Of a DNA stretch of 64,000 bases, positions 6,831-63,301 are shown one piece after another. Source of the stretch: Cephalotus follicularis (Eukaryota; Streptophyta; Magnoliopsida; Oxalidales; Cephalotaceae). The notes below the pieces were generated by a model. The model had not been told where the DNA came from. It worked only from the letters and a program-made list of their open reading frames with translations, and searched no databases. Position 1 is the stretch's first letter; each line of letters starts with the position of its first letter. The DNA lies in NCBI GenBank assembly GCA_001972305.1, contig BDDD01000708.1, forward strand, positions 313,481-377,480. Reading direction: 5' to 3'. Position numbers and translations under genes: made by a program.

Positions 6831-6835
6831 CCTCA

Positions 6836-15779: not shown

Positions 15780-15780
15780 N
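15780..15780. other. Single N: assembly join inside copia B
   Basis: One ambiguous base separates LTR sequence from RNase H coding sequence with no LTR end, polypurine tract or 3' untranslated stretch between them. By comparison with the other LTR (560 bp from 23041 to 23600) and with copia A (about 220 bp between LTR and RNase H), roughly 0.7-0.8 kb is missing here. Confidence 0.85.
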
Positions 15781-17391
15781 TCGCTCGATGTGTTTGGATC
15801 GCTGGTGAGATCGCGGTTCCTTGGCTTGTGCTACAGCCCCATTATTATCACAGTATATTACAACTGGACTAATAATGGATGGAACAACTCCTAGTTCAGT
15901 AATGAACTTGCGCATCCATACACCCTCCTTGGCGGCATCTGAGGCTGCTATGTACTCGACTTCTACGGTAGAATCTGCAATAGTCCCTTGCTTTGAACTG
16001 TGCCAGCTCATAGCTCCACCATTAAGTACAAAAATGTACCCAGAGACAGATTTGTGATCATCCAGATCACTATCAAAACTGGAATCTATAAAGCCCTCCA
16101 ATTTCAGCTCACTATCTTTTCCATAGATCAAGAACATATCCTGAGTCCTCCTAAGGTACTTCAGGATTCCCTTGACCACTTCCCAGTGCTTCTCACCAGG
16201 ATCAGACTGAAAATGACTTGCCATACCCAGGGCAAGTGTGACATCAGGCCTAGTACATAACATGTCATACATGATCGACCCTACTGCTGAAGCATAAGGT
16301 ATCTGACTCATGCGTGCTCTCTCTTCAAATGTCTGAGGATATATCTTTCGAGAAAGATGAATTCCTTCGCCTATTGGCAATAGGCCTCTCTTGGAATTCT
16401 CCATGCTAAACCTCTTCAGCACCTTGCTAATGTACTGGCTTTGGGAAAGCCCAAGCAACATATTGGATGTATTCTTGAAGATCCGAATACCCAGTATATA
16501 GGTGGCTTCTCCCAAATCTTTCATGGAAAAATTCTTAGTCAACCATGTCTTTGCAGATTGTAACATCCCTACATCATTCTCAATGAGTAGGATGTCATCT
16601 ACATATAGCAGTAAGAAAGTGATACTAGGTCCCTCTTGCTTTTGCTAAACACAGGGCTCATCTACATTTTTAACGAAGTCAAAAGCTTTGACTACTTCAT
16701 CAAAACATAGATTCCAGCTACGAGATGCTTGCTTTAGTCCATAAATGGACCGTTCGAGCTTGCACACCATGTGCGGATGCTCGGAAAATGTAAACCCCTC
16801 GGGTTGGGACATATAAATATCCTCTTCAAGGCGCCCATTTAAGAATGTCATCTTGACATCCATTTTCCATGTCTCATAATCATAATGACCGGCAATAGCA
16901 AGCAAGATTCTAATGGATTTAAGCATGGCGACAGGTGAAAAAGTTTCAGTATAGTCGACTCCATATCGTTGCCTATACCCTTTCGCCACTAATCAAGCTT
17001 TATAAGTCTCGATTTTTCCATCTGCATTCATCTTCTTCTTGAAGATCCATTTGCAGCCAATAGGCACTATGCCTTCGGGTGCTTCAACCAAATTCCAAAC
17101 TTGGTTGGAGTATATGGAATCCATTTCGGATTTCATGGCTCCTAGCCATGCTTCAGATTCAGTGCCTTGCACTGCCTCTAGATAGCTGGCAGGCTCGTCA
17201 TCTTCAATGACGTTTATCTCATCAGTACCATCAATAAGGAAACCATACCACTCAGGTGCTAATGGGATTCTGCCTGATCTCCTCAAAGGAGCTCTGCCTA
17301 ACTGAGAACCATTCTCAGCCTGAGATCCAATCTCAGTTGTGTCTGTTGAAGGTCTAACCTCCAACTCCTCCATCTCCTGTGTGGTTTCTAC
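15781..17391 (-). pseudogene. Copia B: RT and RNase H
   Basis: 16993-17373 carries the linker and RT start (VPIGCKWIFKKKMNADGKIE). 16645-16989 carries the RT core (GVDYTETFSPVAMLKSIRIL, WKMDVKMTFLNG, YGLKQASRSWN). Then follow a YVDDILL-like block near 16580-16620 and 15781-16566 with KDLGEATYILGIRI, RPDVTLALGMASHFQSDPGE and RNase H (DDHKSVSGYIFVLNGG, STVEVEYIAASDAAKE). Same wording as copia A. A few interruptions split the frame. Confidence 0.9.
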
Positions 17392-20914: not shown

Positions 20915-21050
20915 AAGCGTCGACGCTTCCCAGAAGGAGTCGACGCTTACCTCTAAGGCGCGAAAATTACAAAAATTGAATAAGCATCGACGCTAAGACA
21001 AGGCGTCGACGCACATAATAAAAACAGTTGAACAAACGTCGACGCTTTAA
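20915..21050. repeat. GTCGAC palindrome array in copia B leader
   Basis: AAGCGTCGACGCTT at 20915, GGAGTCGACGCTTA near 20937, AAGCATCGACGCTA near 20981, AGGCGTCGACGCAC near 21001 and AACGTCGACGCTTTA near 21036. This array is in the internal region, outside the LTR, and shows that the motif is not confined to U3. Confidence 0.85.
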
Positions 21051-21366: not shown

Positions 21367-21367
21367 C

Positions 21368-23600
21368 TGATGGAATCAGAATAACCAATTCCAATGCCAT
21401 AAATAGACTAAGGTGCAAAGGGTGTAGAACAAAATTTTATACAACAAAATATGCAGCAGAATAACACCTAACAAAAGCAAAAACAGTCCATTATGGCTTG
21501 ACCACAGGCCACATGGATCACCACATCAACACAAGAGTTGAATTGGTGTCACCATAGCAAGTAATGGTGACACACAAACATGGGAACTAGAGAGGGAGAC
21601 AAGGAGATATACCTACGGGTGTTAGCTCCTTCGTCATTGCCGCTACTAGCTTGCGAAGACTCCTTCTTTACTGCCCTCCAAAACGTTCAGCTACTGCTCC
21701 CAGCAGATGCACACCAAAAGGAAGAAACAAAACAGTTTCCTTATGCACTTTCTCTTTCTCTCTCAAAACTTATAAAAAGGAAAATTGATTTTGATTAATG
21801 CAATAAAAAACAATCTACCCTAGATGAGTAACTTGCTTGGTGTTTGTAGGTGAAGGAAAACTCTAAGTGCATAGGGAATACTCTTCTCGTTCTGCCCAGC
21901 AAAAAAAACCAACAACAAAAACTGAAACATTTTCTGCACAAATAGCTTCTCACCAGCCCACATTCCCTCTCTCCCACTCTCCCACAAACATGGGATCATG
22001 GTCCTCAATTTCAGGGAGTCTGTAACCATGTTCCCCACGTTTTCATAACGTGCATTGATGGGAGAAAACTGCTGGAGATGTGAGAGAAAATGTGCCCACG
22101 AAGTGAGATCGTGCACAGGCTGCACAACCCGCGCTAAGCGTCGACGCTTTCAACAATAGCGTCGACGCTTATGGATTACATGGCACTAAACGTCAACGTC
22201 TTTCTAAAAGTCATCAACGCTATATAAGCCTTAAGCGTCGACGCTTCCCTGAATGCGTCAACGCTTTGTCTAAAGGAATGCGTCGACGCTTTCCCAGAAG
22301 GCGTCGACACTTTGACTGGTATATAAAGCATTTTGAGTATAAGTCCAACTTATTTAATCCCTTCTAATATTGATTAAGTGAGATCAAACAAATGTGTTTC
22401 CACAAAATACAAAATCCACATAACCGATATTTGACACCAAGACTTAACATGTCTAACATATTAAAGAACTAATCATTATTGGGCAAGGACCCTATAAAAT
22501 CTTGGTTAAAATCGGAGGTGTTCATAAATTACTGAAATACCCCTAGGGTTCGGTTTAGCCATTCTAAATGGTCTTACACCAATTTAAATGCTCTCGGAAT
22601 AATATCTAATATTATCCAAATGGAAAAATCAATCTAATTAATTTTTTCATAATTTAAAACACACCTCATTAACCCTAGATTTTCTAAGTTATCGGTTCAC
22701 GTGTACTATAATCCCTTGTCATACTTGGTCCCGATTGAGGTCTAGGGTAAGGATATGTGTCAACCCTGGATAATACCTCAATGGCTAAAATATATGATCA
22801 TTACTAGGACCTTTGGTAAACTCTCTGGAAATCTAATTTCCAGTCTACCTCAACCTTGGCCAAGGATTTCATAAGTCCAAAGTATAATCAGATCATAATA
22901 GAGCCGATCACCTTCGCTCAGGTGTGACAATCCCATATTGCGCACTCACTTATATTCGTATAGATTCGATCACACCCAAAGACCACCTGATTGCCAGCCC
23001 TGCGCAAGGACTGTGTCAGGTGGAGATCAAAGCATAACCGTCTTCATACAATATAGAGCTGTCGCTCAGGTCTAAGGATCAGACGAGTTTGAGAACTCGC
23101 TAAGTGATCATCACTTATACACAATCGCAACAAGTAGGAGTCACTACTGACATGAGAATAGCGACTATCCAAATAGTGTCTCCTACGTGGGTCCTGTTCA
23201 GTGTACACGCTCCCAGCGCGTACCCCGTTTTTTCCCTAGTGTCCAACACAGATGGTAGTGAGAGAATCCATCCTCCAATTCCATGAGCAGGCAACATACG
23301 CGCAAGTCTATCCGGTTCACTAATGCCCACAAAGTGAACCTATGACTTGGAACTAATTTGACATAAGGAATAAGGTAATCAATCTCACAACCTCCATGAT
23401 AGGCATCCAACCTTATGTCAGGGCATCACAAGTGTAAGCAGGTAAATAATAAACTACTTCAATTAAGTGATAAAACATAAGTGATATAGCCTTAACAAAA
23501 TTAGTACACATCATATATACAAGGAATAAGATTGTTTCATACAAGATAATATATAATATGACAACCCATCTAATGGCTTGTCGGGTCACTATATCTAACA
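21368..23600 (-). repeat. 5' LTR of copia B
   Basis: 2233 bp. Minus strand begins TGTTAGATATAGTGACCCG at 23600 and ends ATTCTGATTCCATCA at 21368. Complete copy; the partner is 14086-15779. Contains the palindrome array 22135-22312 and a TATA-like TTTTTATAAG at about 21767-21780 in the same minus-strand sense. Confidence 0.93.
22135..22312. repeat. GTCGAC palindrome array, copia B 5' LTR
   Basis: About eight copies, including AAGCGTCGACGCTT near 22137, AGCGTCGACGCTT near 22159, AAACGTCAACGTCTT near 22189, AAGCGTCGACGCTT near 22233, TGCGTCAACGCTTT near 22254, TGCGTCGACGCTTT near 22280 and AGGCGTCGACACTTT near 22300. CpG-to-TpG or CpA differences between this and the 14853 array are frequent. 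Confidence 0.9.
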
Positions 23601-24262
23601 GGTCCCATCTTACTCCGCTGAGTAAGTGAAATATGGACATATACTGCACATCCAAACACTCTTAAGTGGGATATGTTTGGTTGTTGACCAAGAACAAGTT
23701 GTAATGGAGAATATTTATGATATGCAGTCGGTCTTATACGTATAAGAGCCGCAGCATGCAATATCGCATGTCCCCAAGCTGAAATGGGTAACTTTGACCT
23801 CATCAACAAAGGACGAGCAATCAATTGAAGTCTTTTGATAAGAGATTCGGCTAACCCATTTTGGGTGTGTACGTGAGGAACAGGATGTTCAATGGCAATT
23901 CCTATTGCCATACAATATTCATAAAATGCTTTGGAACAAAATTCAGCAGCATTATCTAGATGAATAGACTTTATAGGATGATCTGAAAATTGTGCTCGTA
24001 ATTTATTTATTTGAGCTAATAGTCTCGTAAATGCAACATTGCGAGTTGAAAGTAAGCATACATGCGACCATCTTATCGATGCATCTATTAAGACCATGAA
24101 ATACCAAAATGGTCCAGACGGTGGATTAATCGGTCCACAAATATCTCCTTCAATTCTCTCTAAGAATTTTTGAGATTGCACAACCACTTTTGTTGTAGAT
24201 GGTCTTATAATGAGTTTTCCTTGCGAATAAGCAACGCAATGGTTCTCATTATTCAATAGCAT
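23601..24262 (-). pseudogene. Copia K: integrase core
   Basis: Minus-strand frame with GDICGPINPPSGPFWYFMVL (first acidic residue), IHLDNAAEF (second) and NGLAESLIKRLQ (Glu), followed by HLRVFGCAVYVHI and KMGP at the border with element B. Continuation lies at 13917-14085 on the other side of B. Confidence 0.9.
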
Positions 24263-30580: not shown

Positions 30581-30605
30581 ACGCAGCAAAAACCTATCAA
30601 CAACC

Positions 30606-34500: not shown

Positions 34501-34519
34501 TGTATGGAGGAGGATCCCT

Positions 34520-40628: not shown

Positions 40629-40723
40629 AAAAGCTCAGCAGAGGAGCCCAGCCTGGGCCACGACTCTCAGCTCTGATCCTCCTCCTCTGGCCAAGGTCAG
40701 AGCAGAAGGACCAGGGGGGCATA

Positions 40724-42936: not shown

Positions 42937-44134
42937 TGAATATACTAAACTAATTAACTTTTTCGGATTATTCAAATTAAACTATGAACACAAAATAAAT
43001 AAGCAATCAAAAGTAAATAAATAAAGTAATTATGGACAAAGGGTTAGAGAGATGCAAACAAGAATTTATAGTGGTTCGGGAAAGATCATGCCTATCTCCA
43101 CTTTCCCAAGGTCCTCATTGAGATTCCACTAGTATTCCACCCGAATACAATCTCTGAATATTTTTACCAGGAGCTATTCGGTGCACCTTACAATTTTCTG
43201 TGATTGACCTCAATCACTAGGGTTCACCCCCCTTTCTCACTTAGGTTTCATTCCCCTTTACAAGTGTGGATTACAAATATGATATGTGTTTTGTGTAATC
43301 TCTCAAAAGTTTGATATAGCTATTATGATTACAAAAAATTGATTGCTCTCAAAATAGATGAAAGGATCTTGAAAAGGCTTTGGATGTTGATATGAAAGTT
43401 CAGGATTTTTTCTCTTGAAAATCTCTTTGCTTGTTTGATCTTAATCTCTTTTCAATTTCTTGTGTTCTTGTGTTTGTAGCTGATTTGAATTAATAGAGCT
43501 GATGTTTGGAACCTTGGGAATAGCTATTTTTGTCTTGGAACTCATTATTTCTGCCTTGGGAATTGTTACTTCAGTCTTGGGACTTGTTCCTTCAAAGATG
43601 GCGCATTAAAAATGTTGTCAGTAATTGTTTCTAGCCTTGCAAAGCATCGACGGAGTCCTTCAAAGTGTCGCTGCTTATGTGTCCGTTGGATGTTTGAATT
43701 TGAAATGTTCTTCTCAAAGCGCTGACGGTCTTGAATTTGGGGTCGACGGTTTCCCTCAAAGCGTTGACGGTTTGTGTTGAGCGTCGCCGCTTTGAGCAAT
43801 TTTAATTGGCCCAAAAGGTTCTGTTTTTAACCGCTAATATGAAGTGCTTAACCACTGACGCCTTAGCTCAAAGCGCTGATGCTTTCTTCAGAGCGTCGAC
43901 GTTTTGAGCAATTGCTCCTTTGCTCAAAATGCTTCAACTGCTGACGCTTTGGACTTGGGTGTCGAAGGTCTCACAAAGAGCTGACGGTTTCATTATGACC
44001 GTCGACGCTTAGACCTGTATCCGTAATTTCCTGTTTTGACTTTGCAACATTTTATCTTATCTTACACAAAAAGAAACTTTGTTAAATACAAATATGTTAT
44101 CATCAAAACCCGAATTGAGACATAAATGTCAACA
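42937..44134 (-). repeat. 3' LTR of copia D
   Basis: 1198 bp; minus strand TGTTGACATTTATGTC at 44134 to AGTATATTCA at 42937. Carries a palindrome array (43641-44013). The homologous part at 56046-56825 is shorter and differs by several per cent. Confidence 0.9.
43641..44013. repeat. GTCGAC palindrome array, copia D 3' LTR
   Basis: A dozen or more degenerate units, for example AAAGCATCGACGG (43641), AAGCGCTGACGGTCTT (43716), GGGTCGACGGTTT (43741), AAAGCGTTGACGGTTT (43758), GAGCGTCGCCGCTTT (43779), AGCGCTGATGCTTT (43876), GAGCGTCGACGTTTT (43895) and GACCGTCGACGCTTA (43999). Two sub-types alternate: GCGTCGACGC and AGCGCTGACG. Confidence 0.85.
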
Positions 44135-44345
44135 ATCTCCCTTTTTTTGATGATGACAAAATTTGCTACATTTTTAAACAAAAATTATACAAGTTAAAAG
44201 AATATAACAATAATGCATAAGTTAAAGGAACTCCCCCTTAATAACACATAACTCCCCCTTAGTGTGATAAGGGGTATTAACTTATCATTCTTCCTATATC
44301 TTCTCCCTTTGTATATTTTCTCCCCATTTTTGTTATCATTTCAAA
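44135..44345 (-). other. Multiple polypurine tracts upstream of copia D 3' LTR
   Basis: Besides the tract next to the LTR (complement of TCTCCCTTTTTTTG, 44136-44149), the minus strand has further purine runs complementary to AACTCCCCCTTA (two copies, about 44230 and 44251), CTTCTCCCTTTG (about 44301) and TTTCTCCCCATTTTT (about 44317). Multiplied polypurine tracts are a published hallmark of Sireviruses. Confidence 0.7.
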
Positions 44346-44607: not shown

Positions 44608-45822
44608 TCAATCACCCATGGGATCATCCATGTCGCATTCCAAATCATTGGTAGCTCCATGATCTCTTTGATTCGCATCGTCATCTTGGCTCGAGGATGA
44701 CGTGATAAGTCTTTCGTCTCCAACCATCTCTTTCCCCGCAAGCCTTCTTGCAATCCTCTTTTGCCTTCTTTTGAGGGTTTGAACATCAACCTTTATTCCT
44801 TTGATTACTTCCATGAGTTCTTCAAATTGCGTTTTCAGCAAGTTGACATTCGGTGTCGGATCGATTTGTGGCTCGTTTGTGGCTTCTCCTTGAGCCTCCT
44901 CACCCATTTCTTCACCTTCATCTTCAATTACCATTTTTGAATCCTCTTCTCTAGGGATCCATGTCCCGAGCCTTTTATGCTTCTTAAACGCCATTATACC
45001 TAGGGTCTCTTTTCCTAACTTATCTGGACTTTGGAGTGAGTGATACAACTCTCCACTCAAATCTACTCCAAAATGCATGAGGATTTTTGTGATGATATTA
45101 CTATAGGGTAATCGAGCATTTTCCCTATTGTGCATAGCATGCATATGGTTGATTATAAGCATGGGTACATTAATCTTTTGACCCGTGATTATATGGAACA
45201 TCGTGTAAGCTTCAATATGGGTCACTTCATCAAAACCACCGGCCTTAGGTAATATATGTGTGTCTACGGCATGGTGTAGGAACCTATGGTGCAAGCTAAG
45301 ATTCCTAGTATACATTCATTGCATCACATGCGCGTTCTCACCAAATAGCATTCGCACATACTCTTCTTTGTTAAACTGATTATTAATTATCCAATTGCGT
45401 TGATTCCAACCCCTAGCACCTTCACATTGGATTTCTAGAATTGTAGCTAAGGTTGTGGAATTAAATTCTCTCTCCGTGTACTTAACTTTTGTGCACATGC
45501 TTACACTAGAACTAGAAAGGATGTTTACATAAAAATCATTCATTAAATTGGGGTAATGAGGCAAATTTATCCTTAACAATGGGGCTAATCCTTGTGCCTA
45601 TAACCATCCTACTATAGGGAATCCCTCACTATTGAAAAAGTCGAACTCAAGAGTTTTACCTACAAGGATCTTGCGTTCGAAATATGCCTCTGGATATCTA
45701 GGGACCGGAGGGAACTCTTCTGGTGATGGCAGCAGTACAGCTCCCCTCTTTTTCTTGTTGCCAAGATGCTTCGTTTTTGTTCTTGATCCTTGTCCAACCT
45801 CAATGTTCTTTGATTTAGGCAT
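44608..45822 (-). pseudogene. Copia D: extra ORF downstream of pol
   Basis: Minus-strand frames in series. 45598-45822 starts MPKSKNIEVGQGSRTKTK and includes YPEAYFERKILVGKTLEFDF. 45316-45579 has LPHYPNLMNDFYVNIL and RGWNQRNWIINNQ. 44608-45315 has the LPYSNIITKILMHFGVDLSG block, a glutamate-rich linker and a coiled-coil-like tail. The LPY-ILT-HFGVDL wording is that of the 'putative plant transposon protein' family (Pfam PF20167 style, from memory). It sits between RNase H and the 3' LTR in sense orientation, the position of the extra (so-called env-like) ORF of Sireviruses. I see no signal peptide or membrane segment. Broken in two or three places. Confidence 0.65.
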
Positions 45823-45956: not shown

Positions 45957-46142
45957 AAAAGCGTCGACGCTTTTATATAAAGCGGCGTCGCTTTGTTGAA
46001 TTTTCCTAATTCGAGCCATAACTTTAGTTTAAAACGATGACGCTTTTAATCCAGGCGTCAACGCTTTGCATATCTTGCAAAAATTCTAATTTTAAGTATA
46101 GTGTTAAACGCTGACGCTTATATTTTAGGCGTCGACGCTTTG
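45957..46142. repeat. GTCGAC palindrome array upstream of copia D extra ORF
   Basis: Contains the best copy in the window, AAAAGCGTCGACGCTTTT (45957-45974, a perfect 18-bp palindrome), then AAAGCGGCGTCGCTTT (45979), AAACGATGACGCTTTT (46032), AGGCGTCAACGCTTT (46054), AAACGCTGACGCTTA (46107) and AGGCGTCGACGCTTT (46128). It lies in the spacer 130-320 bp upstream of the extra ORF in its reading direction. Confidence 0.88.
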
Positions 46143-48020: not shown

Positions 48021-49999
48021 TCGGGCCTGATACTCGGCCACAGTCATGTCACCCTGCCGCAGCTCCAAGTGCTTCGTCTCTCTCCTTTCCCGCTCTATCG
48101 GGGGTACATAGGTCACCAGGAACTCCTCCTGAAACCCTTCCCAAGTACTAGCAACTCCAGTGGCCTCCCATTTGGCTTTGACCATCTCCCACTAGTGAGT
48201 AGCCTCACCCCATAATCGGTCACAACAAATCTCAGTTTCTGTCTGTCAGTACACTCCATCACTTTGAAGATCTTCTCTAGATCCTGTAGCCACCTCTCTG
48301 CGATAGTAGCATCAAGCTCCCCTTTGAAACTAGGAGGATTCTGTCTCATGAACCTCTCAAGGTTCTTTCCAAGCCGATTACCGTCATCATGTATACCTTG
48401 AGCAGGAGCCATCTGCTGAGGCTGAGCTTGAGCATACAATCTCCGCATCTCCCCCATATTCGCTGCATAAGCAGCCATCTGTTGCTGATTAGCAACTATC
48501 TGCTGCTGGATGTAGTCAGCGATGCGGTCCACCGGATCTCTCACCCCAGGTGCCGCCTCCGGAACATTGATGTTGGCAGCCCCCTGAGGAACATCATTCA
48601 TTGGATATCTCCCAAGATTCACCTCCTCGGGAACATCCTCATCAACAACTCTACGCCTTCCGCGTCTCCTTCAGTCCATTGGTTTCTACAAGAAGGATGA
48701 CGGTTAGTCACGACTTTAGGAAAACAATTCATTAATTGCCGAGGAAAATTTCCTAGGTAAGCATATTTGGAATATGCTCTGATACCACTGCTGTGGTATC
48801 AAATCATTTGATTGTTGAGGATAGTGTCCCAGCGATAGCCCATAATTAAATATAGGCTCTGATACCGCTGCTGTCACACCCCGCTCCCGATAAGACAGCA
48901 GTAAAGGCAATCAATATAACGTTATCCAGCTTATACAAATATGATAAAATTAAAAACTTCAATTCCATTCACATGTGCGTAAGCATTTAACAACAAGCTA
49001 GATAAACAAACTGAATCATGCGTCCCATACCACATGATTCCAACATTAACATAATTGAGCCATGGTCGATTTCCCATAAATGGGGCGTGATCAAAAGCTG
49101 ATCAACACCATTAATACATTAATCCAAAATAATACGGGTCTCAATACATTATTAAAACATTTATTTAAACAATAAAACCCCATCTCCCCACAGATTCGCC
49201 GCGTACGGTCGATATCCACATCACTGCATCAATCTGCAATAGCCTTTGTTCTCACTCGGCTAAATCATAAATGAAATTCAAGGTCAGTGATAATGAATGT
49301 CATGAAATGAATGCACTCATGATGCAATATATAATATATCGCCACACGTACATATACATATGTATATACATATATGCCAATAGGTGCAACCACGCCAAGT
49401 AGCTACAACAATCAAATCATCAATCATGTCTCAAAGGACAAAATAAATCCAATCAACGGTACGAAGAGCACCGCCATCTCCTGGCCCCGACGTCGTACTC
49501 TTACTCCGGCTTCCGACTCCCGGGTCACGAAGCAAGTCAAATCAATCAACTCATGATGCTCGCACTCTGTGTTCAGCAATCATGGTAACCCGTGTTACTC
49601 GCACTATGTGTCAGATAACATTGTACTTGGGCGTCCCTAGCCATCTCCTGGCACCTAGGAGAACATCCCCACCACCAGCCATCAGTGACATTCCGTCACC
49701 CCAGCCAGTACGGCATCAATCACAATCAACAAATCAATTCAATTCAAATCGTTTCCAAGTAGTTTATAAAGTACTGGAAATAATACATTTATATCAAAAT
49801 GTATTGCATCTTTGAAACCAAGTTTCAATCCGTTGAAAACATACATTTATCAAAATATATATTTTCATATCAAATAATGATTTGTATAAAATCATGTACA
49901 CATTTCTAAAATGAATAAAAACACTTTAGAATCAATCACATTCCAATCACCAATTCATTTCATATCAAAATGCAATGCAAAGATATGCTCAAGTGCAGG

Positions 50000-50040
50000 T
50001 CAGTCCCTAACCAGTCGGCTGTCTCCTCATAACAGTCGGT
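50000..50040. repeat. Left remainder of the second palindrome array of LTR E
   Basis: CCAGTCGGCTGTC near 50020 and ACAGTCGGTTGTC near 50034. The array resumes at 53023 on the other side of the solo LTR, which inserted within it. Confidence 0.8.
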
Positions 50041-50046
50041 TGTCTT

Positions 50047-53017
50047 TGTAACACCCCCGATTCGGAGGGAGTCGTTACGGTTCCTAATCCGAGACTAAAC
50101 ATAACCTATCATGAAATATAACTCAATTTTATTCCTTCTTATCAATTTATTAACTCATCTTTAATTCAAATCGCATGATGGTCAATATATATATGTAATC
50201 TAATAATGGTCTAGCAACTTTAATCAAAATCTAAAAACATGGTCTAGAACTTTATTCATAATCTAAAACTTAAACATAGCCCAAACTTAAACATAATCCA
50301 AAGTCATAAACTAAACGACATAATATTGTTCAAATAGGGGTTCTAACATGACCATAAAATAACTAAGCATAAACGGTTCCATCTCCTAAGTGATCCTTAT
50401 CATAGGTGACATCTCGCTCATCACACATTGCTCGGATGCTATCCCAGAATACCTGCCGCATGGAAACAAAAACGCAGCTGAGCAAACCTCAGTACGGATA
50501 TAGAATCATAAAACATAAAACGATAATTTAAAAGATAGAAAACACCTGAATCTTTAAATATCATATACCTTATGCATAAAATAATTTAATATGATTTTCA
50601 AAAGATAAAGTAAGTAGTCATACAATCAATTCAAAACGAATATCTAATTTTCAAAGCGTTATTCAATTTTAAAAAAAAACATAATCCAAGTTCAAAACAG
50701 TATCCAAATCAAACGTTCAAATTACTTTAACATCAACCAAGTTAAAGATTTTAAAATAAAAACTTATCCGATTCCATAATCTCATCATAAATATCCAAAC
50801 ATATAACAGAGACTTATCCGATTCCGATATCTCATTCCAGAGATCCAAAGCGCATACACATATGCAAAGTTGCAAGGGGTTTACAAGGCCCACATGCCAA
50901 ACGGAAAGACGTGTACGGCACTACACAATCAATCCCCAAATCCGAATCCTTAACATAACAAAAACTAGAGTATACCCATATGCCTCTATCACAAAATCGG
51001 ATCCATAAATCCACCTCATGGGATTTATTCAAAACAAAGAGAGACGCCGTAGTCAAATCACACCGCTACGGAAGTGTCATGTCCTCGTGCCAGGCCTACG
51101 ACATGCCTATGGTACCTCCATAGGTTGGAAATATCTCTGTGTATATCCTTTTTCAAAAACATTGCTTTATTTCTAAAAACAATTTAGAAACATAAACACA
51201 TTTTCCAAACATTTTCTGGATATAGTAAAATCATTACATAGCATCAACTCATTTATTTTTCACTGTAAAGAGATGATCGTATCATATTTCTTAACATATC
51301 ATAGCATAAGAATAAAGTCAAGAACATTAAATTCTCAAAATATCAACTGACTTTTATTTTCAAAATCGTATCGAATCATAAAACATAGCCAAGTTCATAA
51401 AACAGCAGGAATCACATTTGAATTCATTTCAGTAAAACCGTAGGAAGAGACCAAGAACAAAGATTCCGTACGTTATTCATAAAGTAAAACTATATTTTTA
51501 TTTACTACAGTAAAACCAATAGGAGGGTATCAAGAAACGAAGATCCGTACGTTATTCATAAAAAGTGAAACGGGACAGTTTCAATAAAATCAGATAGCCA
51601 AAGAACGATAGAATCCATACGTTATTCATAAAAATAATAAACTGAATTTATTCAGATAAAACCGAAGGAGATATCGAAGAACGAAAAAAATCCGTACCTT
51701 AAGCGATCACAAAAAAGATAGACGAATTGATCAACAATTTTAAAAGTCCCTCGAAGCACAAAAATCTAAAAGATACAATATCATTTATATAAGGGTTCAA
51801 AATCACTTCCAAACATCAAACAGTAATTTAACAGTGTCAAAAACATACTCCAAATCATTAGACGAACAAACGGATTACAAAACTTAAAACCAGAAAATTC
51901 ACTGGACAATTCTAGCTGACTGTATCAAAATCCAGTCGACTACACAAGGGTGGCAGTCGACTATGTTGCATAGGCAGCCGACTACTCAAACTGGGTTGAA
52001 TCCAGTCGACTGTGACAGGGGGTCCAGTCGACTGTGCAAGGCAAAACAATCGACTGTTTCAAGAGGCAGTCGACTACTCAATGGCTAACAGTCGACTGTT
52101 TAAATGGACAGTCGACTGTTCTGCTTGACAGAACAGCACACACAACAGTTTTAATTCCGCAAATTCGGCTACTAGGAGAGAGACACACAATGGAGGCACA
52201 AACAATGGATAATAACATACATATACAATATGGGAAAGGCAATTTAGGTCATGGTAATGCAGAAAAGGAATCCAAATCTGATATAATGTGGAAATAGGGC
52301 AAAATTTCGTGATTGAGGGTGATAAAGAAGGAAGAAAATCTGTTTTTGGGAAGGAAGAAGGAAGAAAACGGGAAAGGGGGGGAAGAAAAGGGAAAAATAA
52401 GTCTTTTAATCCAAAAATAAACATTTTGTTTCTCAATAAAACAATTTTTTCCATTTATACAATATTTGTCTCCTAATAAAACCCTTTTTACCTTGTTTAT
52501 GTTAAAACTAATTTTAATCAATTTAAAATGCCAAACAGCAATTATTACTTATCTACAATTATATTTTATTAATTATCCAAAAGGCAACATAATTGGTATT
52601 ATAAAACCCAAAACATAAAAGTCCAAATAAAACTTTAAAATAAACCAACATAATAACAAAACAATAAATTTTTACTTTTCCAACAATCATATTCTAATAA
52701 ATATGAAAAACCCTAGTTTAAAGTCATATAGCCCAAAAATTATAATATCATATAGCTCATAAATTAAAATAGGCCGAAATAATAATAAAAACTGATATTA
52801 GATTTATATAAAATATAATTCAATTAATTTTACTTATTCATGTACATAGTCCAACCAATATTTAACAGTCTAAAATTAATGTCTTTAAGCCTAAAACATA
52901 AAAGCCCAATTTAAAATTGACCAACCATATAAAAAAATAAAAATTCCAAAATATGCACACCAACATAAAATCAAACAAAAATCCGAAAATAAGCACACGA
53001 ACAAACGGGGTATTACA
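50047..53017 (-). mobile_element. Solo LTR J, Tekay-type gypsy
   Basis: 2971 bp with ends TGTAACACCCCCG and GGGGTATTACA and perfect 5-bp target duplications GTCTT (50042-50046 and 53018-53022). The minus strand is the likely sense, since chromovirus LTRs beside it end GGGTGTNACA. No internal region. It holds its own CAGTCGACTG array (51910-52125) and lies inside the second array of LTR E. Confidence 0.9.
51910..52125. repeat. CAGTCGACTG palindrome array in solo LTR J
   Basis: About ten copies, among them CCAGTCGACTACAC (51942), GCAGTCGACTATG (51957), GCAGCCGACTACTC (51976), CCAGTCGACTGTG (52001 and 52022), ACAATCGACTGTTTC (52046), GCAGTCGACTACTC (52067), ACAGTCGACTGTTT (52088) and ACAGTCGACTGTTC (52106). 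Spacing is about 15-30 bp. Confidence 0.9.
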
Positions 53018-53022
53018 GTCTT

Positions 53023-53309
53023 CCTTCGACAGCTGGCTGTCCTAGCTCTGGCAGTCGGCTGCCTCCCTTAACAGTCGACTGTCTCCTCTTGACAGACGAC
53101 TGTTTCCTCATCCAGTCAGCTGCCCTCTCTTGGCAGTCGACTACATAACCTTTTGCAGATATGTTCTATTAAACGTATGAACAGTCGACTGGTTCTTACG
53201 TCCAGTCGATTGTTTCCTATTGAGTAGTCGGCTGTTCGCACTGAACAGTCGGCTGTTCTAGCCCTCCAGTCGGCTGCCCGCCTTGGTAGTCGACTGGATT
53301 TACATCAGT
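53023..53309. repeat. CAGTCGACTG array 2 of LTR E
   Basis: More than ten copies: GCAGTCGGCTGCC, ACAGTCGACTGTC, ACAGACGACTGTTT, CCAGTCAGCTGCC, GCAGTCGACTACAT, ACAGTCGACTGGTT, CCAGTCGATTGTT, GTAGTCGGCTGTT, ACAGTCGGCTGTT, CCAGTCGGCTGCC and GTAGTCGACTGGA. Lies 400-700 bp downstream of the TATA-like site in minus-strand sense. Confidence 0.9.
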
Positions 53310-53833
53310 AGGTAAAAATAGTAGAAAATGCATGTCTTTCACACTTCAATCCAACCAAACACGAACATTCAACACCAATAACATACATTTATGCTCATAA
53401 TACAGTCCATAGCATGCATTTCGTCCATTAACTTCCATTATAACGAAACTTAAATAACAATTATGAAATTTACCCCTACCTTAGAATTCCAAGTTAGGAA
53501 TTACAATCCACCTCTTTAAGTTCCAATCCGAGTTTCCAAGCCTCCAAATTCGTCCAACAACTCCACCAAGTCTGGTTCGAGCTCCAAATCCAGATTCCAA
53601 GCTCAAAATTGGAGAGATACAACTTCTCTCTCTGTTTTTCTCTCAGCTGTCCTCTCTCTATTCACAACTCTCTATCTCTTTGAATTTGCTAATGAGAAGA
53701 GAAGAGAAAGTGTGTTTTTATTGCCATTTTCGTGTCTCTCTCTTCACAAGCCGACACTATCACCAATTTTGTCTTCTCCCCCTTTCTCTCTGCCAAATGA
53801 GACTGCCAACACATTTTTAACTGACACATCTCA

Positions 53834-53943
53834 TGGCAGTCGACTGCCTTATCTTGGCAGTCGGTTGTCTCTCACAACAGTCAACTGGTTCCACTCAAAG
53901 AGGGTCCAGTCGACTGTCCCTCTTGGGCAGTCGGTTGCCCGCC
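53834..53943. repeat. CAGTCGACTG array 1 of LTR E
   Basis: GCAGTCGACTGCC, GCAGTCGGTTGTC, ACAGTCAACTGGTT, CCAGTCGACTGTCC and GCAGTCGGTTGCC within 110 bp, 110-220 bp upstream of the TATA-like site. The same place in the related LTR at 57789-62743 holds the GCGTCGACGC version (62365-62596). Confidence 0.9.
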
Positions 53944-54082
53944 CTATATCAACACTTCTACACTTCGAATTTTGCCCAAATTTAACATTACAAAAAGGAA
54001 AAGTCATAATTCTCATTAATTAATTGTATAAACTCATTGTAAAATACAACATTACATTAAGGAAAATCTCGGGCGTTAGACA

Positions 54083-56045: not shown

Positions 56046-56825
56046 AGAATAGATGAAAGGATCTTGAAAATGCTTTGGATGTTGATATGAAAGTTCAGGA
56101 TTTTTGCTCTTGATAATCTCTTTGCTTGTTTGATCTTAATCTCTTTTCAATTTCTTGTGTTCTTGTGTTTGTAGCTGATTTGAATTAATAGAGCTAATGT
56201 TTGGAACCTTGGGAATAGCTGCTTTTGTCTTGGAACTCATTATTTCTGCCTTGGGAATTGTTACTTCAGTCTTGGGACTTGTTCCTTTAAATATGGCGCA
56301 TTAAAAATGTTGTCAGTAATTGTTTCTAGCTGTGCAAAGCATCGACAAAGTCCTTCAAAGCGTCGCTTATGTGCTTGTTGGATGTTTGAATTTGAAATGT
56401 TCTTCTCAAAGCGCTAACGGTCTTGAATTTGGGGTCGACGGTTTCTCTCAAAACGCTGACGGTTTGTGCTGAGCGTCGCCACTTTAAGCAATTTTAATTG
56501 GCCCAAAATGTTCTGTTTTTAACCGCTGATATGGAGTGCTTAACCGCTACGCCTTAGCTCAAAGCGCTGACGCTTTCTTCAGAGTGTCGACAGTTTGAGT
56601 AATTTCTCATTTGCTCAAAATGCTTCAACTGCTGACGATTTGGACTTGGGTGTCGAAGGTCTCACAAAGCGCTGACAGTTTTATTATGACCGTCGACGCT
56701 TAGACCTGTATCTGCAATTTCCTATTTTGACTTTGCAACATTTTATCTTATCTTGCATAAAAAGAAACTTTGTTAAATACAAATATGTTATCATCAAAAC
56801 TCAGATTGAGACATAAATGTCAACA
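56046..56825 (-). repeat. 5' LTR of copia D (shorter copy)
   Basis: Aligns with about 43353-44134 of the 3' LTR and includes the same palindrome array (about 56338-56702), ending TGTCAACA before the target duplication AGGAT. About 780 bp against 1198 bp. Confidence 0.88.
56338..56702. repeat. GTCGAC palindrome array, copia D 5' LTR
   Basis: Same units as 43641-44013 with CpG-type differences, for example AAAGCGTCGCTT near 56358, GGGTCGACGGTTT near 56432, AGCGCTGACGCTTT near 56562 and GACCGTCGACGCTTA near 56690. Confidence 0.85.
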
Positions 56826-57057
56826 AGGATATTTAAGAGCTTCTTACACATTAATGGGTATAGACACAACATCGAGACTAGAAGTAAAAGCTCGAAATGC
56901 AGTAGTTAGACAATGATTAGAAACAAAACGACAGTTAGGATGAAAGGTACAATGTCATTTAATTCTACGATGAGCAATAGGACGATTATCAAGAAGATAG
57001 TCATTACCAAGCAGTGTTGATGGTAGACTATTAGTTGCAAACTCAGTTGGAACTATG
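56826..57057 (-). pseudogene. Copia C: integrase-RT linker
   Basis: Minus-strand text reads DYLLDNRPIAHRRIK and CHCTFHPNCRFVSNHCLTT-like words, the usual linker before RT in this copia group. It continues the element seen at 41596-42936 and ends where another LTR starts. Confidence 0.6.
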
Positions 57058-57788: not shown

Positions 57789-59283
57789 TGTCACACCCCG
57801 CTTTCATAAACGACCCAAAGGTTATTGCAATTAACATATATCCAGCATAAACAAAACAAAAAAATTTAAAACTTTCTAATCATATAAATTCTTGCGGAAG
57901 CATTAAATATAAGCTGAATTTAAGGCAATGCAACATGCATCCCATGTTAGGTTAGGAGTGTCCCTGTATGCCACGATATGGCTCGTTGTTTGTATATATA
58001 CACTCTTGATTTGTCCAATTCTGAATTCCATTCATATTTCATGTGCACTTTTATTTATTGTCAAGGGTATGTGACTTATCCCAACCAACGAAAAGGAACA
58101 GAATAATTATTCGTAATTAACTGTATGTCATATAGCGCCCGTCATACCAAAGGGTCGGATCTCGTGTCAAGGAGGCTATGAGAATGAGATCCTTACTCCC
58201 TGTGACAAATGTTCCAAGTCATATATTCACTTTCTTCGGGACATTAATGAACCGCGAAGACTTGTCACGTTAAGCTTGCTTTCGGGTTAGCAGTGGAAGA
58301 TGGTTATCTTGTAGCCATTTGGGTTTATCCCTAAAGCTAAATGTGAGGTGTATGCTAGAGAGCGTGACACTGAACTGACTCACAAATGGGAAACCTATTT
58401 GTATATTCAATACCCAATGTCAATAGGATTCATATGGTCTCGGTAGTGTATAGTCTATTGTGACTAGTAGGTCTATAGCATGCGTTGTCTCCTTTGACCT
58501 AAGGTCTATAGCCTGCGTTGTCTCCTTTGACCTGAGCGGCTGGCATGCATTGTGTAGTGACTGCTTAACTTTGATTTCTGCCTTTCCCAACACTAGCCAC
58601 ATGCTGGCAAAATGGTTGTCTTTGGGTCTTCTGGGAGCTACATTGAGATGTATGGGTGAGTGTGCAATAGGGGATCATCACACCCGTGCTGAGGGTGACC
58701 GACTCTATTTATCTATGTACGTTGTAGACTTAAAAGTCCTAATCAGGCATAGGTGGACTGGGAATGAGATGTTCCCGTGGGAGGTCTACCGATAGTCTCA
58801 GTGCGATCATAGATTCATAATTATCGAACAATTACTAGGGGTGACATTCATCCAAACCCTAGACTGTGATCGCAGTCAAGCATGACGAGGGAAACATGAC
58901 ACATATGCCGATGACTGGATAAAACGACTGGCTATTCAGACCATGATAGATAGACGTGGTAATACACAGATCCAGGGGGTGACTGGCACTCACACTGGGG
59001 CTATTTTGATAGTCGGTGACTATCAGAATGGTCGTACCAGTATCGGGGTGTACTGAGAATTTATCATCATACCGGAGATCGACAGGCTTTTGGGTCCTGC
59101 CTGACTTTGAACAGGTTGATATGTGGTGGGACACATATCATTTCGTGAAAGGACAACATCAGAGAAGATGTTGCTTTGCTAGTGAGTATTTTATTTGCAG
59201 GATTAAGGTTCATGCAATGCCACGATGAAATATTCTATGCGAAGGGTTTTGAAAAATAGAAGGGATTGTCTCATCTTTGTCTT

Positions 59284-59585
59284 AGGCGTTGACGCCATGG
59301 ATAGCATGCGTTGACGCCATGTCTAGTTGTGTTGCTGGGCGTTAACGCTATGGAGAGCATGCGTCGACACCATAACTAGATTGAGTCCCTGTGCGTTAAC
59401 GCTATGGAGGGCATACGTTGACGCTTTGAAAACCAGTGACTTACGCGTTGACGCTATGATGTTTATGCGTTGATGCAAAGACAAAAATAGACTACGCGCC
59501 TATTTCATCTTATCGTGGGCATTGACGCATAGATAAGATAAGACGTATGGCATTGATGCCATGACAAGCTGACACACGGCATCTC
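59284..59585. repeat. GTCGAC-derived array upstream of the LTR F TATA box
   Basis: Degenerate units mostly with T or A at the central CpG: AGGCGTTGACGCCAT (59284), ATGCGTTGACGCCAT (59306), GGGCGTTAACGCTAT (59337), ATGCGTCGACACCAT (59358), GTGCGTTAACGCTAT (59390), ATACGTTGACGCTTT (59412), ACGCGTTGACGCTAT (59441) and ATGCGTTGATGC (59465). Two further copies (TACGCGTCGACACC, TACGCGTTGATGCC) follow the TC tract near 59769-59800. The related LTR A has no such array. Confidence 0.88.
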
Positions 59586-59639
59586 ACCTGATTTGAGAGA
59601 AGTTGGTGTGACTTTTGGGATAAAGTGGAGAGAGAAGTC

Positions 59640-59691
59640 AAACACTATAAATAGCTAAAGACAAGAGGTCAAAGCTTACACAACACACTAT

Positions 59692-59733
<42 letters not shown>
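59640..59733 (+). promoter_or_regulatory. TATA box and TC tract of LTR F
   Basis: CTATAAATAGC at 59642-59652 is a strong plant TATA match. About 45 bp downstream is a (TC)n tract (59693-59731), as in plant Y-patch/initiator leaders. The palindrome array ends 57 bp upstream of the TATA box. Inferred LTR promoter. Confidence 0.6.
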
Positions 59734-59735
<2 letters not shown>

Positions 59736-60099
59736 TCCCTGCCATCTCTCTTCTTTCTGCTGCTATCGTACGCGTCGACACCATCGCCTACGCGTTGATG
59801 CCCAAAACGTCTGGTTCATTTTACAGCCATTTTCAACCCTCCTTTCACCACTCAAAGTTCATAAAAGGTGGAGATAACTTGTACACTACATCTTATCTAT
59901 ACCAAGAGTGTTTTGTGTAGGATAAACACTTGGCTAGCATGCTTGGTCTTCCTTTTTCGTGGTTTAAGGAGGAGCTTGGAGTTCTTGGATTCTAAGGGTA
60001 GAGGGAGCTTGACTTGAAGGAAGGAGCCTTCAGCTTGATAAGAATCTCTTCTCTTCTTGTTCTTGTGGCCATGGCAGCGGGTTGTAGCATGGGTTAGAG

Positions 60100-60325
60100 A
60101 ACCCTAGCCGAATCCCCTTGTCCCTTTGTTGGTTTCCTTGCCATCCCTTAGGGTTAGGGATTTTTGCGCATGGGTTGTAAGGACTATTGGCTAGGGTTTG
60201 TGTGTTTCCTTGTGAGCCATTTTTGGGAGTCCATTTCTAGGGTTTATGGCAACCCTATTGTTCTAACTCGTTTTACCATATGCTTGGTTTTGGTTTCGGT
60301 TTGATTGGTTGTTCAATTAGGGTTC
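60100..60325. repeat. Telobox cluster inside LTR F
   Basis: AACCCTAG (60105), TTAGGGTTAGGG (60149), CTAGGGTTTG (60192), CTAGGGTTTATGG (60238), AACCCTA (60251) and TTAGGGTTCC (60317). Same relative place as the cluster in LTR A. Confidence 0.55.
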
Positions 60326-61357
60326 CTTGGCACTCATAGGGACAATTTGGACTTAGCTTAGGGTAATCCATTACTTGAGAATTAATCAATTGGATGAAAT
60401 TTAAAATTAATCAGGCATAAACCCTAAAGTCTGAATTGGTTATCATTTTCCACTACGCTTGAGCGCGTTCCCAACATGCCATACTACATGTTACCAAATG
60501 TTTAACAACAATACAATATAATCATCGTTAATTGCCCTCAAATGGAGCACGAACTAATATCCATCAATACATTAATCATTTTAACATTTCTCAAAAAGGA
60601 AGATAACTCTATCTTCTCTTCGGTCACACCAAGCTTGTCAATATCGATCTCACTGCATCAATCTGTAATTGATAGGGTTAGCCAAAACCACTGGCTAAGT
60701 AGGAAAGATATAAAAGTACTTTAAGGTCAACGATAACAAATGTCATAAAATGAATGCATCATGATACAATACTTAATATATAAAACACTATATATATGAG
60801 CAACCATGCCAAATGAATACACCAATACAATCCATCAATCATGTCACAAAGGACCAATCAATCCATCCATATGTATGAAGCGCATCGCCATCTCCTGACC
60901 CCAATGTCGTACTCCTACTTTAGCACCGTCTCAGGCCGACTCGAAGCAGGTCAATCAATCCAATGTTACTCGCACTAAGGCCAAGTAACCAGTATGTGTG
61001 TCCCTAGCAATCTCCTGGCACCTAGAGCCCAACCCGCTGTTAGCCATCAGTGACAACCTCCGCTACCGCAACTAACACGACATCAATCCAAATCACAATC
61101 CAACAATCAATTCGTTTCAAGCAGTTTATAAGTTATAAAATACTTGAAATAACACATTTGTTCAAAATGTATAATCAGTCTTTAGAACAGTATTTCAATC
61201 TTTTGAAATATAATATTTTCCACGTAAAATAGTGATTTATAATAAAATCATGTATGCACTTTTTCTAAAATAGTAAAACACTTTAGAATCAATAACAATC
61301 AATCCACAGTTCGATCCACAGTTATGTGCAAGCAACCATATGCTCAAAATGAAAATA

Positions 61358-61625
61358 GACCCTTTTGGCATCAACGTATACCCTCTAGGCGTCAATGTGC
61401 ATGGCAGTCCTCCTAGGTGTCAATGTGCATGGCAGTCCTCCTAGGCGCAAACATTTATCTCTTTGGCGTCGATGATTTAAGGTAGGAATCTTAGGCGTCA
61501 ACATTTTACCTCTTGTCGTCGACGCTTTAAGGTAGGAACCTTAGGTGTCAATGTTTTACCTTTTGGCGTCGACGCTTTAAGCGTCTTCTTCCTCGCATAA
61601 CAGGCTAAGGCGTCGACGCTTTTCC
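61358..61625. repeat. GCGTCGACGC array 2 of LTR E'
   Basis: Units such as AGGCGTCAATG (61387), TGGCGTCGATGATTTAA (61460), AGGCGTCAACATTTT (61493), TGTCGTCGACGCTTTAA (61515), TGGCGTCGACGCTTTAA (61564) and AGGCGTCGACGCTTTT (61608). Just to the right is ATCGACTGTTCAG (61628-61640), which has the CAGTCGACTG spelling instead. Confidence 0.88.
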
Positions 61626-62146
61626 TCTAATCGACTGTTCAGTGAAACCAGAACATTGTCTTCTCCATTTTCAAAACGCAACCATGTCTTAATACCAGTG
61701 GAACCAACAGATCAACACATGCAACTCAATCCATTTCCATTCCAAATCAGGACATGCATAACAGATTATCCATCAATGGAAAACCACAACATTGCAAAGA
61801 TCACAAACACCATTTATGCATTTCACCAAATGAGCATTTACCATAATTGAGCCCAAAACATAGTTAAATAATCCCCATCTCATATTCCAAATTAGGAATC
61901 GTAGTCTACTCCTTCAAGATCACAGACCCGTAGCGCTTTTGAGCTTCCAAGTCTTGTCCAGAAACTCCAAATCCAAGCTCGACTCCACTCTTGGTCCGAG
62001 CTTCCAAGCCTCCAGTTCCAGGTTCAAGTATGGAGAAAAGTGGCTTATCTCTCTCTCATTTCTTCTCCCGTTTTTCCTCTGTTTTCTTTCTCTTTTCTCA
62101 AGTGCAGGTTGATGAAGAGGAGAGGTGTGCTTTATGGAGGAGTTGC

Positions 62147-62190
<44 letters not shown>

Positions 62191-62364
62191 TGCCCACATG
62201 ACGCACAACTGTCGCCCTTTCTCTCCTTCTGCCATTGCAGGCCTGGGGAACTGGCGAAATGCCTAACACGCTATCTGGTGTGACAAGGCACCCGATTAGT
62301 GGTCTACACCTATCTTTAGCACGTCTTCTGTCGGTGCTTTAGTTTCATATGTCGCCATGTTTAG

Positions 62365-62596
62365 GCGTCGACGCACTGGGATGAGAGTCGACACGTTGAC
62401 CATCTCTCCTTAGTGCTAACAGGTTCCACGAATCGCGTTGACGGGTTGCTCTACAAGACCGAGTTACGCGTCGATGTATCACTTATGTGTCTTTAGTTCA
62501 CAAACGATGGGCGTCGACGCTATCTCTTGGCGTCAACACTTTAAGGCAAGGAGCCTTAAGCGTCGCGCTTTACTTCTTGGCGTCGACGCTTTAAGC
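62365..62596. repeat. GCGTCGACGC array 1 of LTR E'
   Basis: AGGCGTCGACGCACT (62365), GAGTCGACACGTTGACC (62387), GCGTTGACGGG (62434), ACGCGTCGATG (62467), GGGCGTCGACGCTAT (62510), TGGCGTCAACACTTTAA (62528), AAGCGTCGCGCTTTA (62558) and TGGCGTCGACGCTTTAA (62579). Upstream of the TATA-like site in minus-strand sense. Confidence 0.88.
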
Positions 62597-62743
62597 ACCC
62601 ATTTTCCTTATATTTTTAACTCATCACAACATTTCTTAACACTCTTTACTCAAGATCCAACATTACAAACTGGAAATCCATAATCTTTATTAATCCGATG
62701 TATAATTACAATAATATAATAAATAGAAATTTGGAAAATTACA

Positions 62744-63301
62744 ATCTCCCCTTCTTCAAAGAATTCGTCCTCGAATTTTAACACTTCGAGAATAAATGAG
62801 GGTAACGTTCCCGAATGTCATCTTCACGTTCCCACGTCCCTTCATATCGATGATGGAACTGCCATTGAAACTTCACCATAGGAATAGTTCGGTTCCTCAA
62901 CACTTGAGTCTTCCAATCAAGAATCTTCACAGGTAATTCTTCGCAAGAAAGATCACCTTTCACCGAGATCAAGTCATAATCCAAGATGTGTGATGGATCT
63001 CGGATGTAACTTCGTAACATGGAAACATGGAAAACATCATGCACACCTGACAACGTAGGAGGCAAAGTGAGTTGGTATGCCACTTCTCCAACTCTCTCGA
63101 GAATTTGAAAAGGATCAATGTAGCGTGAGCTAGTTTACCCTTTTTCTCGAACCTCTGAACACCCTTCCAAAGAGAAACTTTCAGAAATACGTGATCTCTG
63201 ACGTCAAAAGTCAAAGGTCTCCTCTTCACATTATCGACATAGCTCTTTTGTCGACTCTGAGTTGCAAGCAATCTCTCTTTAATCACTTTGATTTTCTCCA
63301 A
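62744..63301 (-). pseudogene. Chromovirus E': integrase C-terminus and chromodomain
   Basis: 62969-63301 has MEKIKVIKERLLATQSRQKSY and RRPLTFDVRDHVFLKVS, the integrase GPY/F-side region. 62778-63083 has AYQLTLPPTLSGVHDVFHVS, MLRSYIRDPSHILDYDLISV, DLSCEELPVKILDWKTQVLR and a chromodomain-like FQWQFHHRYEGTWEREDDIR. Characteristic of Del/Tekay chromoviruses. A few breaks. Confidence 0.88.

Follow-up and report, generated by a model that had tools for sequence, protein, structure and literature searches.

Arrays of GTCGAC-centred palindromes in copia and gypsy retrotransposons of Cephalotus follicularis: candidate binding sites for shared dimeric DNA-binding proteins

LTR retrotransposons of different superfamilies in the genome of Cephalotus follicularis carry arrays of short palindromes on a common GTCGAC core, which are mostly spaced by about 21 bp and written in a few largely exclusive spellings. 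We lean towards reading these arrays as clustered putative binding sites for dimeric DNA-binding proteins that would act in trans on the LTR promoters, and their distribution suggests that unrelated elements may be read by the same few putative proteins. The analysis covered one genome, with a window of 64,000 nucleotides (contig BDDD01000708.1, positions 313,481 to 377,480) as the stretch studied throughout, and a sample of 20 systematic 10-kb stretches (200 kb, 6.5 kb of that N); superfamilies were assigned from protein domains in the window and, in the sample, from similarity to those.

Abundance and spellings of the palindrome

Near-matches to AAGCGTCGACGCTT with up to three mismatches number 46 in the window against 0.74 expected, and the highest count reached in 100 dinucleotide shuffles of the window was 3. 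When the inner ten bases were searched in the two main spellings described below (GC or CA, up to two mismatches), 97 sites were found (50 shuffles: mean 19.6, maximum 28), with 52 cases of same-motif neighbours at most 35 bp apart (50 shuffles: mean 0.08, maximum 1). The core GTCGAC occurs 51 times, and 45 of these copies fall inside 4.1 kb of array regions. Among the 100 perfect 10-bp palindromes of the window, 16 are GCGTCGACGC and 8 are CAGTCGACTG, the next words being present three times each. A reading made from the sequence alone had reported the motif at nine places and had dismissed chance by eye; the window motif scan recovered it at 9/9 of them, and a chance origin is ruled out by the window shuffles, by the counts in the 200-kb sample and by the scan of 8-bp palindromes given below.

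That reading had proposed a single palindrome. We find instead at least three spellings on the GTCGAC core, named here by the bases flanking it: GC for GCGTCGACGC, CA for CAGTCGACTG and AC for ACGTCGACGT, the third of which occurs outside the carriers of the window.

The sequence-only reading had also called for a count over the whole genome. In the assembly of 1.58 Gb (1.577 Gb), pairs of perfect copies with a gap of at most 30 bp number 48,687 for CA, 4,236 for GC and 256 for AC, these repeat counts being lower bounds. They lie far above those of the reversed-word controls (166, 7 and 0 pairs, respectively) and of CAGACGTCTG, a control palindrome of equal composition that gave 0 pairs genome-wide. 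In the 200-kb sample GTCGAC occurs 106 times against 14.2 expected and forms 28 pairs at 20-22 bp, compared with 14 such pairs for the remaining C-containing 6-bp palindromes combined; ATATAT and TATATA, which are AT repeats, form 72 and 71 pairs at 20-22 bp, with more than 500 at other distances. When 8-bp palindromes of the sample were scanned for same-word pairs at 19-22 bp (177 non-AT words, AT-only words excluded), 26 of the 28 pairs proved to be centred on GTCGAC. Arrays, defined as at least three copies with up to two mismatches, of which two may have no more than one, plus one spacing of 19-22 bp, number 32 in the sample and are spread over 13/20 stretches. None of these 32 overlaps a match to the 17 coding pieces of the window, matches which cover 12% of the sample; this agrees with the earlier placement of the motif in non-coding element DNA. 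As an estimate of the number of independent families, clustering of the flanks of 48 catalogued arrays gave 10 to 25 clusters depending on the threshold, and another clustering gave 8.

In viral contigs, array-like pairs were seen in two stretches (57% and 68% G+C); with one pair per stretch they were taken as chance and not as true arrays. No relatives of the protein of the copia element A1 were found in viral contigs by tblastn, and a peptide search with a translated CA array gave no match.

Carrier elements in the window

The carriers in the window are copia LTRs (A1, A2 and A4), a Sirevirus (S), Tekay-like gypsy LTRs (T1 and T2) and a solo LTR (X). Angela and Tekay, as lineage names for elements of the window, follow the earlier reading and are provisional. 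The features of S are as follows (coordinates; strand, with a point where none is assigned; feature and basis):

43353..44135; -; S 3' LTR, repeated part (93.6% to 56048-56826)
43642..44010;.; degenerate GC array, S 3' LTR (motif scan)
44611..45315; -; S ENV-like ORF, PF20167 (Transposase_32; domain match)
45957..46142;.; GC array 5' of the S ENV-like gene (motif scan; place matches the pre-ENV cluster of PMC2829016)
46600..47313; -; S integrase piece (Pfam: SH3_retrovirus above cut-off, rve below)
56048..56826; -; S 5' LTR, repeated part (self-comparison)
56339..56701;.; degenerate GC array, S 5' LTR (motif scan)

The copia integrase piece, a gag-pre-integrase match and the PF20167 ORF of S all lie on one strand, and no RT piece of S was found in the window. 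From its position the PF20167 ORF would be the ENV-like gene. Near the 3' LTR there are four PPT-like octamers, A[AG][AG]GGGAG, at 44310, 44259, 44238 and 44144; they come in two spellings and are not all identical, and the letters of the Sirevirus octamer are presumed. By eye, the AT/TG junction reads CATCATCAAAA..GGGAG-AT-TG, with an inverted repeat TTTTGATGATAACA about 27 bp inside the LTR; in the Sirevirus paper the PPT inverted repeat lies 28 bp inside the LTR on average (PMC2829016). The Sirevirus 5' LTR/PBS junction CA/ATTGG-TATCAGAGC was not seen by eye at 55900-56110, and the LTR end of S is possibly truncated. Judged from its PPT copies, AT/TG junction, inverted repeat and ENV-like ORF, S is a Sirevirus, and its array at 45957, which begins with the best copy of the motif (AAAAGCGTCGACGCTTTT), is the known pre-ENV cluster of these elements. 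Its arrays stand in the LTR before a TATA-like box (TATTTAAAG, about 45 bp downstream of the 5' LTR array, by eye) and 5' of the ENV-like gene, a layout shared by a second Sirevirus, L019. The copies in S are GCGTCGACGC and its variants, and a CGG-CCG palindrome is absent among those listed.

The copia elements A1 to A4 comprise:

14085..15779; -; A1 3' LTR copy (94.3% to 21367-23040, self-BLAST)
14854..15050;.; GC array, A1 3' LTR (motif scan)
15769..19323; -; A1 coding pieces: gag, zinc knuckle, integrase, RVT_2 (Pfam)
20915..21047;.; GC array, A1 leader between primer-binding site and gag (motif scan)
21369..23601; -; A1 5' LTR, about 2.2 kb, bounds approximate (self-comparison, inspection)
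22136..22312;.; GC array, A1 5' LTR (motif scan)
6836..9063; -; A2 copia LTR, related to A1, bounds approximate (self-BLAST, 77-84% to the A1 LTRs)
7624..7767;.; GC array, A2 LTR (motif scan)
798..3171; -; A3 LTR, homologue of A4 (72%), bounds approximate (self-comparison)
57945..60411; +; A4 copia LTR, 72% to A3, bounds approximate (self-comparison)
59284..59528;.; A4 array, GCGTTRACGC-type (motif scan)

The Pfam match of A1 to the integrase core is slightly below the curated cut-off. Directly after the LTR end of A1 there is a PBS-like TGGTATCAGAG; the LTR is followed by GTGGTATCAGAG, unlike the Sirevirus junction, and the integrases of A1 and S are 30% identical over 141 residues. On this junction and this identity, A1 appears to be a non-Sirevirus copia element. 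A single N at 15780 ends its 3' LTR copy in mid-LTR and is probably an assembly join that removed the remaining LTR and linker. The A2 LTR starts with TGTTAGAT near 9063. A4 has an additional pair of copies at 59772-59801 and a TATA-like TATAAATA at 59646, about 118 bp downstream of the end of its array. To the left and right of the array site the LTR of A3 can be aligned with that of A4, and no array was found in A3 at the place matching that of A4.

The gypsy LTRs and X comprise:

49141..54080; -; T1 Tekay-like gypsy LTR, nested in S and split by X, bounds approximate (homology to the T2 LTR)
50012..50042;.; CA array, T1 slot 2, part one (motif scan)
50047..53017;.; X, solo LTR inside the T1 array (5-bp target duplication GTCTT)
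51933..52118;.; CA array, X (motif scan)
53052..53296;.; CA array, T1 slot 2, part two (motif scan)
53837..53937;.; CA array, T1 slot 1 (motif scan)
60564..62745; -; T2 Tekay-like gypsy LTR, bounds approximate (LTR comparison, inspection)
61368..61637;.; GC array, T2 slot 2 (motif scan)
62365..62589;.; GC array, T2 slot 1 (motif scan)

The four CAGTCGACTG arrays of T1 and X had been overlooked by the sequence-only reading. T2 adjoins a Tf2-1-like SH3 domain (PF24626, 62781-63134), a gypsy-type C-terminal integrase region. T1, whose start was recognised by eye, is presumptively placed in the same class by its LTR homology to T2 only (66% over 49141-49992 and 63% over 53467-53743). The ends of X read TGTAACACCCC..GGGGTATTACA. 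By eye, slot 1 of T2, and perhaps that of T1, has a TATA-like box on its upstream side, so arrays do not always precede the promoter.

Between 22.4 and 43.6 kb, where the window holds a host gene and another LTR element, single near-matches are present and no arrays were found; the array scan of that element (29691-41598) gave none. The exon of the host membrane-protein gene at 27563-27910 (-) is identical to Cephalotus follicularis CFOL_v3_12774 in 110/115 residues, with the differing residues at both ends; identity drops to 59% and 57% for the named relatives that come next.

Spacing and motif architecture

An irregular spacing of 20-50 bp had been described, and the spacing proved more regular than that. 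Counting one LTR each of A1 and S, 36/48 window spacings of up to 35 bp are 20-22 bp, with 20-21 bp dominant and a class mean of 20.9 bp; 20 of these 36 come from T1 with X, and the class holds only 1/4 of the spacings in T2 and 1/3 in the A1 leader. Spacings of 19-22 bp also make up 41/50 of the listed genome pairs for GC, 57/69 for CA and 47/50 for AC, with differing spacers; the pairs listed are the first places in contig order, hence non-random, and the CA ones all lie on one contig (C1). A further 12/69 of the listed CA pairs have a spacing of 27-28 bp. On inspection by eye, a TGATGCGTGTTGTG-like insert is common to several of the spacers of this class and could be a second site or a sign of common descent; AC pairs, also by eye, are often extended to AAAGACGTCGACGTCTTT. 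Helical phasing outside the 20-22 bp class was dropped, the longer spacings alone giving no significant signal (n = 25, Rayleigh p 0.34).

Where GTCGAC is exact, the information content of the two adjacent bases on either side is 0.8-1.8 bits. More than six bases from the core the values are mostly below 0.3 bits in the pooled GC sites and in T1, two GC columns reaching 0.36 and 0.45; profiles of single elements rest on 7-15 sites each and are noisier. Dyad matches at flank positions 1 and 2 are 0.69 and 0.75 in the pooled GC sites, followed by 0.38 and 0.47, and 1.00 and 0.62 in T1, followed by values below 0.5. Because they drop below 0.5 past two flank positions, symmetry is clear within the inner ten bases and weak outside them. 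Tandem repeat analysis (TRF) gave periods of 20-25 bp, and also of 42-54 bp, across several arrays. Inside the arrays the spacers are mostly unlike and the palindromes alike; either the arrays are no plain repetition of a 21-bp unit, or everything in them but the palindrome has diverged.

Exclusive spellings and shared slots

Although GC and CA are both common, mixed GC-CA pairs within 30 bp number 4 in the whole genome (1 forward, 3 reverse), and in 45/48 catalogued arrays the copies are either all CA or none CA. The GC and AC spellings differ at two bases and can be found in one array, as in L006.

Homologous LTRs, Tekay-like as well as Sirevirus, have arrays in equal slots and in different spellings. 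Six Tekay-like LTRs with both conserved blocks each carry arrays in two slots, written CA/CA in T1, AC/AC in L024, GC/GC with four AC copies in L006, and GC/GC in T2, L003 and L026; the GC of L003 and L006 is not independent, because both were drawn by a GC motif match. Among the Sireviruses, S and L019 have GC in the LTRs and before ENV, L010 has CA in the LTR, and L020 has CA in the LTR and at a place aligning to the pre-ENV region, where no ENV-like match was found. The main spelling is identical across slots in 11/11 elements with at least two arrays (the six Tekay-like LTRs, the Sireviruses other than L010, A1 and A4, that is, those with alignable slots), single odd copies occurring in some slots. 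Array copying between the slots of one element can also yield such agreement.

Three 10-kb stretches, L007, L008 and L017, show differing spellings within one stretch. In L008, arrays of CA, GC, CA and CA follow each other within 2.7 kb (5681-8311), the GC array about 350 bp from a CA array. L008 may break the rule that an element has one spelling; nested elements could explain the mixed stretches, as do X in T1 and a homologue of X in L026. The Tekay-like element of L015 has three mainly-AC arrays (2222-3436, 9628-9924) flanking gag and integrase matches.

Interpretation

A common core, dyad symmetry, two-turn spacing, free spacers and exclusive flanks form the pattern expected of clustered dimer sites for proteins that act in trans. 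One palindrome would be the site of one dimer on the GTCGAC core. A distance of about 21 bp, or two helical turns, would place neighbouring dimers on one face of the DNA and allow joint binding. Which member of one protein family binds would depend on the bases beside the core (GC, CA or AC), and these proteins would most likely come from the host. Elements of different superfamilies would have gained and amplified such sites in their LTR control regions, Sireviruses also before the ENV-like gene, presumably since binding switches on or de-represses the promoter. In favour of protein sites, the core is equal in copia, Sirevirus and gypsy elements despite their otherwise unlike LTRs, and arrays lie upstream of TATA-like boxes in S and A4. 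Against them, the motif diverges at least as much as its surroundings, and stronger conservation was found neither between A1 and A2 (20-24% differences in the motif, 15-16% around it; 16-19% against about 15% outside CpG) nor between the LTRs of S (12.9% against 5.2%). The strong symmetry is also confined to the inner ten bases, and A3 lacks an array. As a more tentative extension, which we think possible but on balance less than probable, there may be a few mutually exclusive palindromic address codes, CA, GC and the rarer AC, each with its own reader from one family of dimeric proteins. Elements of different superfamilies might then change code in every slot at once, either to keep up with a reader or to evade it.

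How different families came by the arrays bears on the proposed independent gain. The sequence-only reading had seen no other common non-coding sequence among the carriers; the LTRs are indeed unlike in self-comparison, but a small excess of similarity between spacers remains. Of 31 cross-family spacer pairs, 5 fall inside the top 5% of real-sequence controls, where about 1.6 are expected, and with mononucleotide shuffles 9/110 comparisons, within and between lineages, had at most 1/60 shuffles at or above the observed score. Exchange of array DNA between families by recombination, rather than independent gain, would account for this weak excess. Slots 1 and 2 of T2 are about 79% alike over 77 bp, which means that arrays were copied at least within an element. 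The top cross-family spacer score is nevertheless 24 (about 12 matched bases), equal to the control maximum, and we regard such exchange as unlikely. One recombined LTR segment common to all carriers, which had been named as an observation that would speak against a spread motif, is unsupported apart from the same small excess.

The remaining alternatives concern what, if anything, reads the arrays. A VANC-like anti-silencing protein encoded by one element and exploited by others would fit the evolutionary pattern well (PMC5735166), yet the carrier pieces scanned in the window show gag, pol and ENV-like domains only, and an element-encoded reader seems distinctly unlikely. Action at the RNA level, with neighbouring palindromes pairing in the transcript and the hairpins feeding small RNAs or regulating element RNA, has been proposed for maize Sirevirus palindromes, at whose clusters a small-RNA excess is cited (PMC10760457). 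Pairing of neighbours would also favour one spelling per array, and 6/6 array pieces fold better than their shuffle means (z -2.4 to -4.8); these folds do not discriminate, however, because any array of palindromes folds well, and a hairpin requires neither a GTCGAC core common to superfamilies nor a spacing of 19-22 bp with unlike spacers, so that we hold this explanation to be improbable. About equally improbable is neutral turnover, in which a unit of about 21 bp is multiplied through slippage and unequal exchange and the palindrome arises incidentally: it accounts for the TRF periods, for one spelling per array, for gain or loss between A3 and A4 and for a motif evolving no slower than its surroundings, but it leaves the spacers mostly unlike while the palindrome is alike, the same core is seen in families that are not related and in different slots of a single element, and no other non-AT palindrome behaves so in the 200-kb sample; we give it little credence. 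Sites at which the host recognises and silences retrotransposons appear the least probable. Motif differences between LTR pairs are often CpG transitions (3/4 in A1, 5/9 in S), as expected of methylated sites, but elements should lose such sites, and the arrays are dense in the sample and common to unlike elements.

If the arrays are indeed sites for dimeric proteins, the tens of thousands of perfect pairs and the exclusive spellings across superfamilies offer a clean route to a reader protein. Finding one would link the transcription of retrotransposons that are not related, within a single genome, to a small number of proteins, and whether related elements switch codes could be put to a direct test.

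Comparison with known systems

Palindromic LTR arrays are already known; the extent seen here was not found described. In a literature search that covered few subscription journals, no report was found of the sharing of such palindromes with gypsy and other copia elements, of exclusive spellings or of spelling switching. Among the matches listed for CGTCGACG as a transcription factor binding site, and among those listed for CAGTCGACTG, none was by its title on plant elements. GTCGAC matches, on both strands, the core of CBF/DREB sites of the RYCGAC type; this is a lead only, and leaves the ten-base symmetry and the spellings unexplained. VANDAL elements are DNA transposons. In PMC11302176 a palindrome is mentioned in a reference only.

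The ONSEN element offers a parallel for a host factor acting on LTR sites, since HSFA2 binds its LTR heat response elements and activates it; the motif is different and one family is concerned (PMC3907296). The targets of VANC proteins are tandem repeats of short motifs in non-coding DNA, with spellings that differ between related elements and units that diverge together within a repeat, and VANC6 motifs occur also in the unrelated AT9TSD1 (PMC5735166). The arrays described here resemble them in all these respects: non-coding position, alternative spellings, joint divergence of units and presence of the motif in an unrelated element (PMC5735166, PMC10398659). They differ in that the VANC reader is encoded by the element and that the word "palindrome" is absent from PMC5735166. 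Sharing across superfamilies had been thought to lack precedent, which holds in part: in maize the palindrome CACCGGACNNNGTCCGGTG is common to structured regions of Copia and Helitron elements (PMC10760457), while sharing with gypsy was not found reported. The maize sequence is a different one, and in the accessible text of that paper gypsy is unmentioned and spaced arrays in homologous slots are not shown.

The closest relatives are the palindromic repeats (RMs) of Sireviruses, which occupy the upper part of the LTR, ahead of the TATA box, and the region 5' of ENV, and for which no binding protein could be named (Bousios 2010, PMC2829016). The palindrome of grass Sireviruses had been said to differ from the present one. 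Most Sirevirus RMs do, 12/13 of those listed being described as having a CGG-CCG core, and RMs are stated to be absent from classic copia, but the grape Sirevirus RM in Table 3 of the same paper, CGGTCGACCG, already has the GTCGAC core, and Tnd-1 in that table also lacks CGG-CCG (PMC2829016). Both systems consist of multi-copy, CpG-rich palindromes with one sequence per element, in the LTR and in the pre-ENV place (PMC2829016). In Cephalotus follicularis the palindromes are GC, CA or AC, the spellings are exclusive and the spacing is common to them, and the arrays extend beyond Sireviruses to copia LTRs of the A1, A2 and A4 type and to Tekay-like gypsy LTRs.
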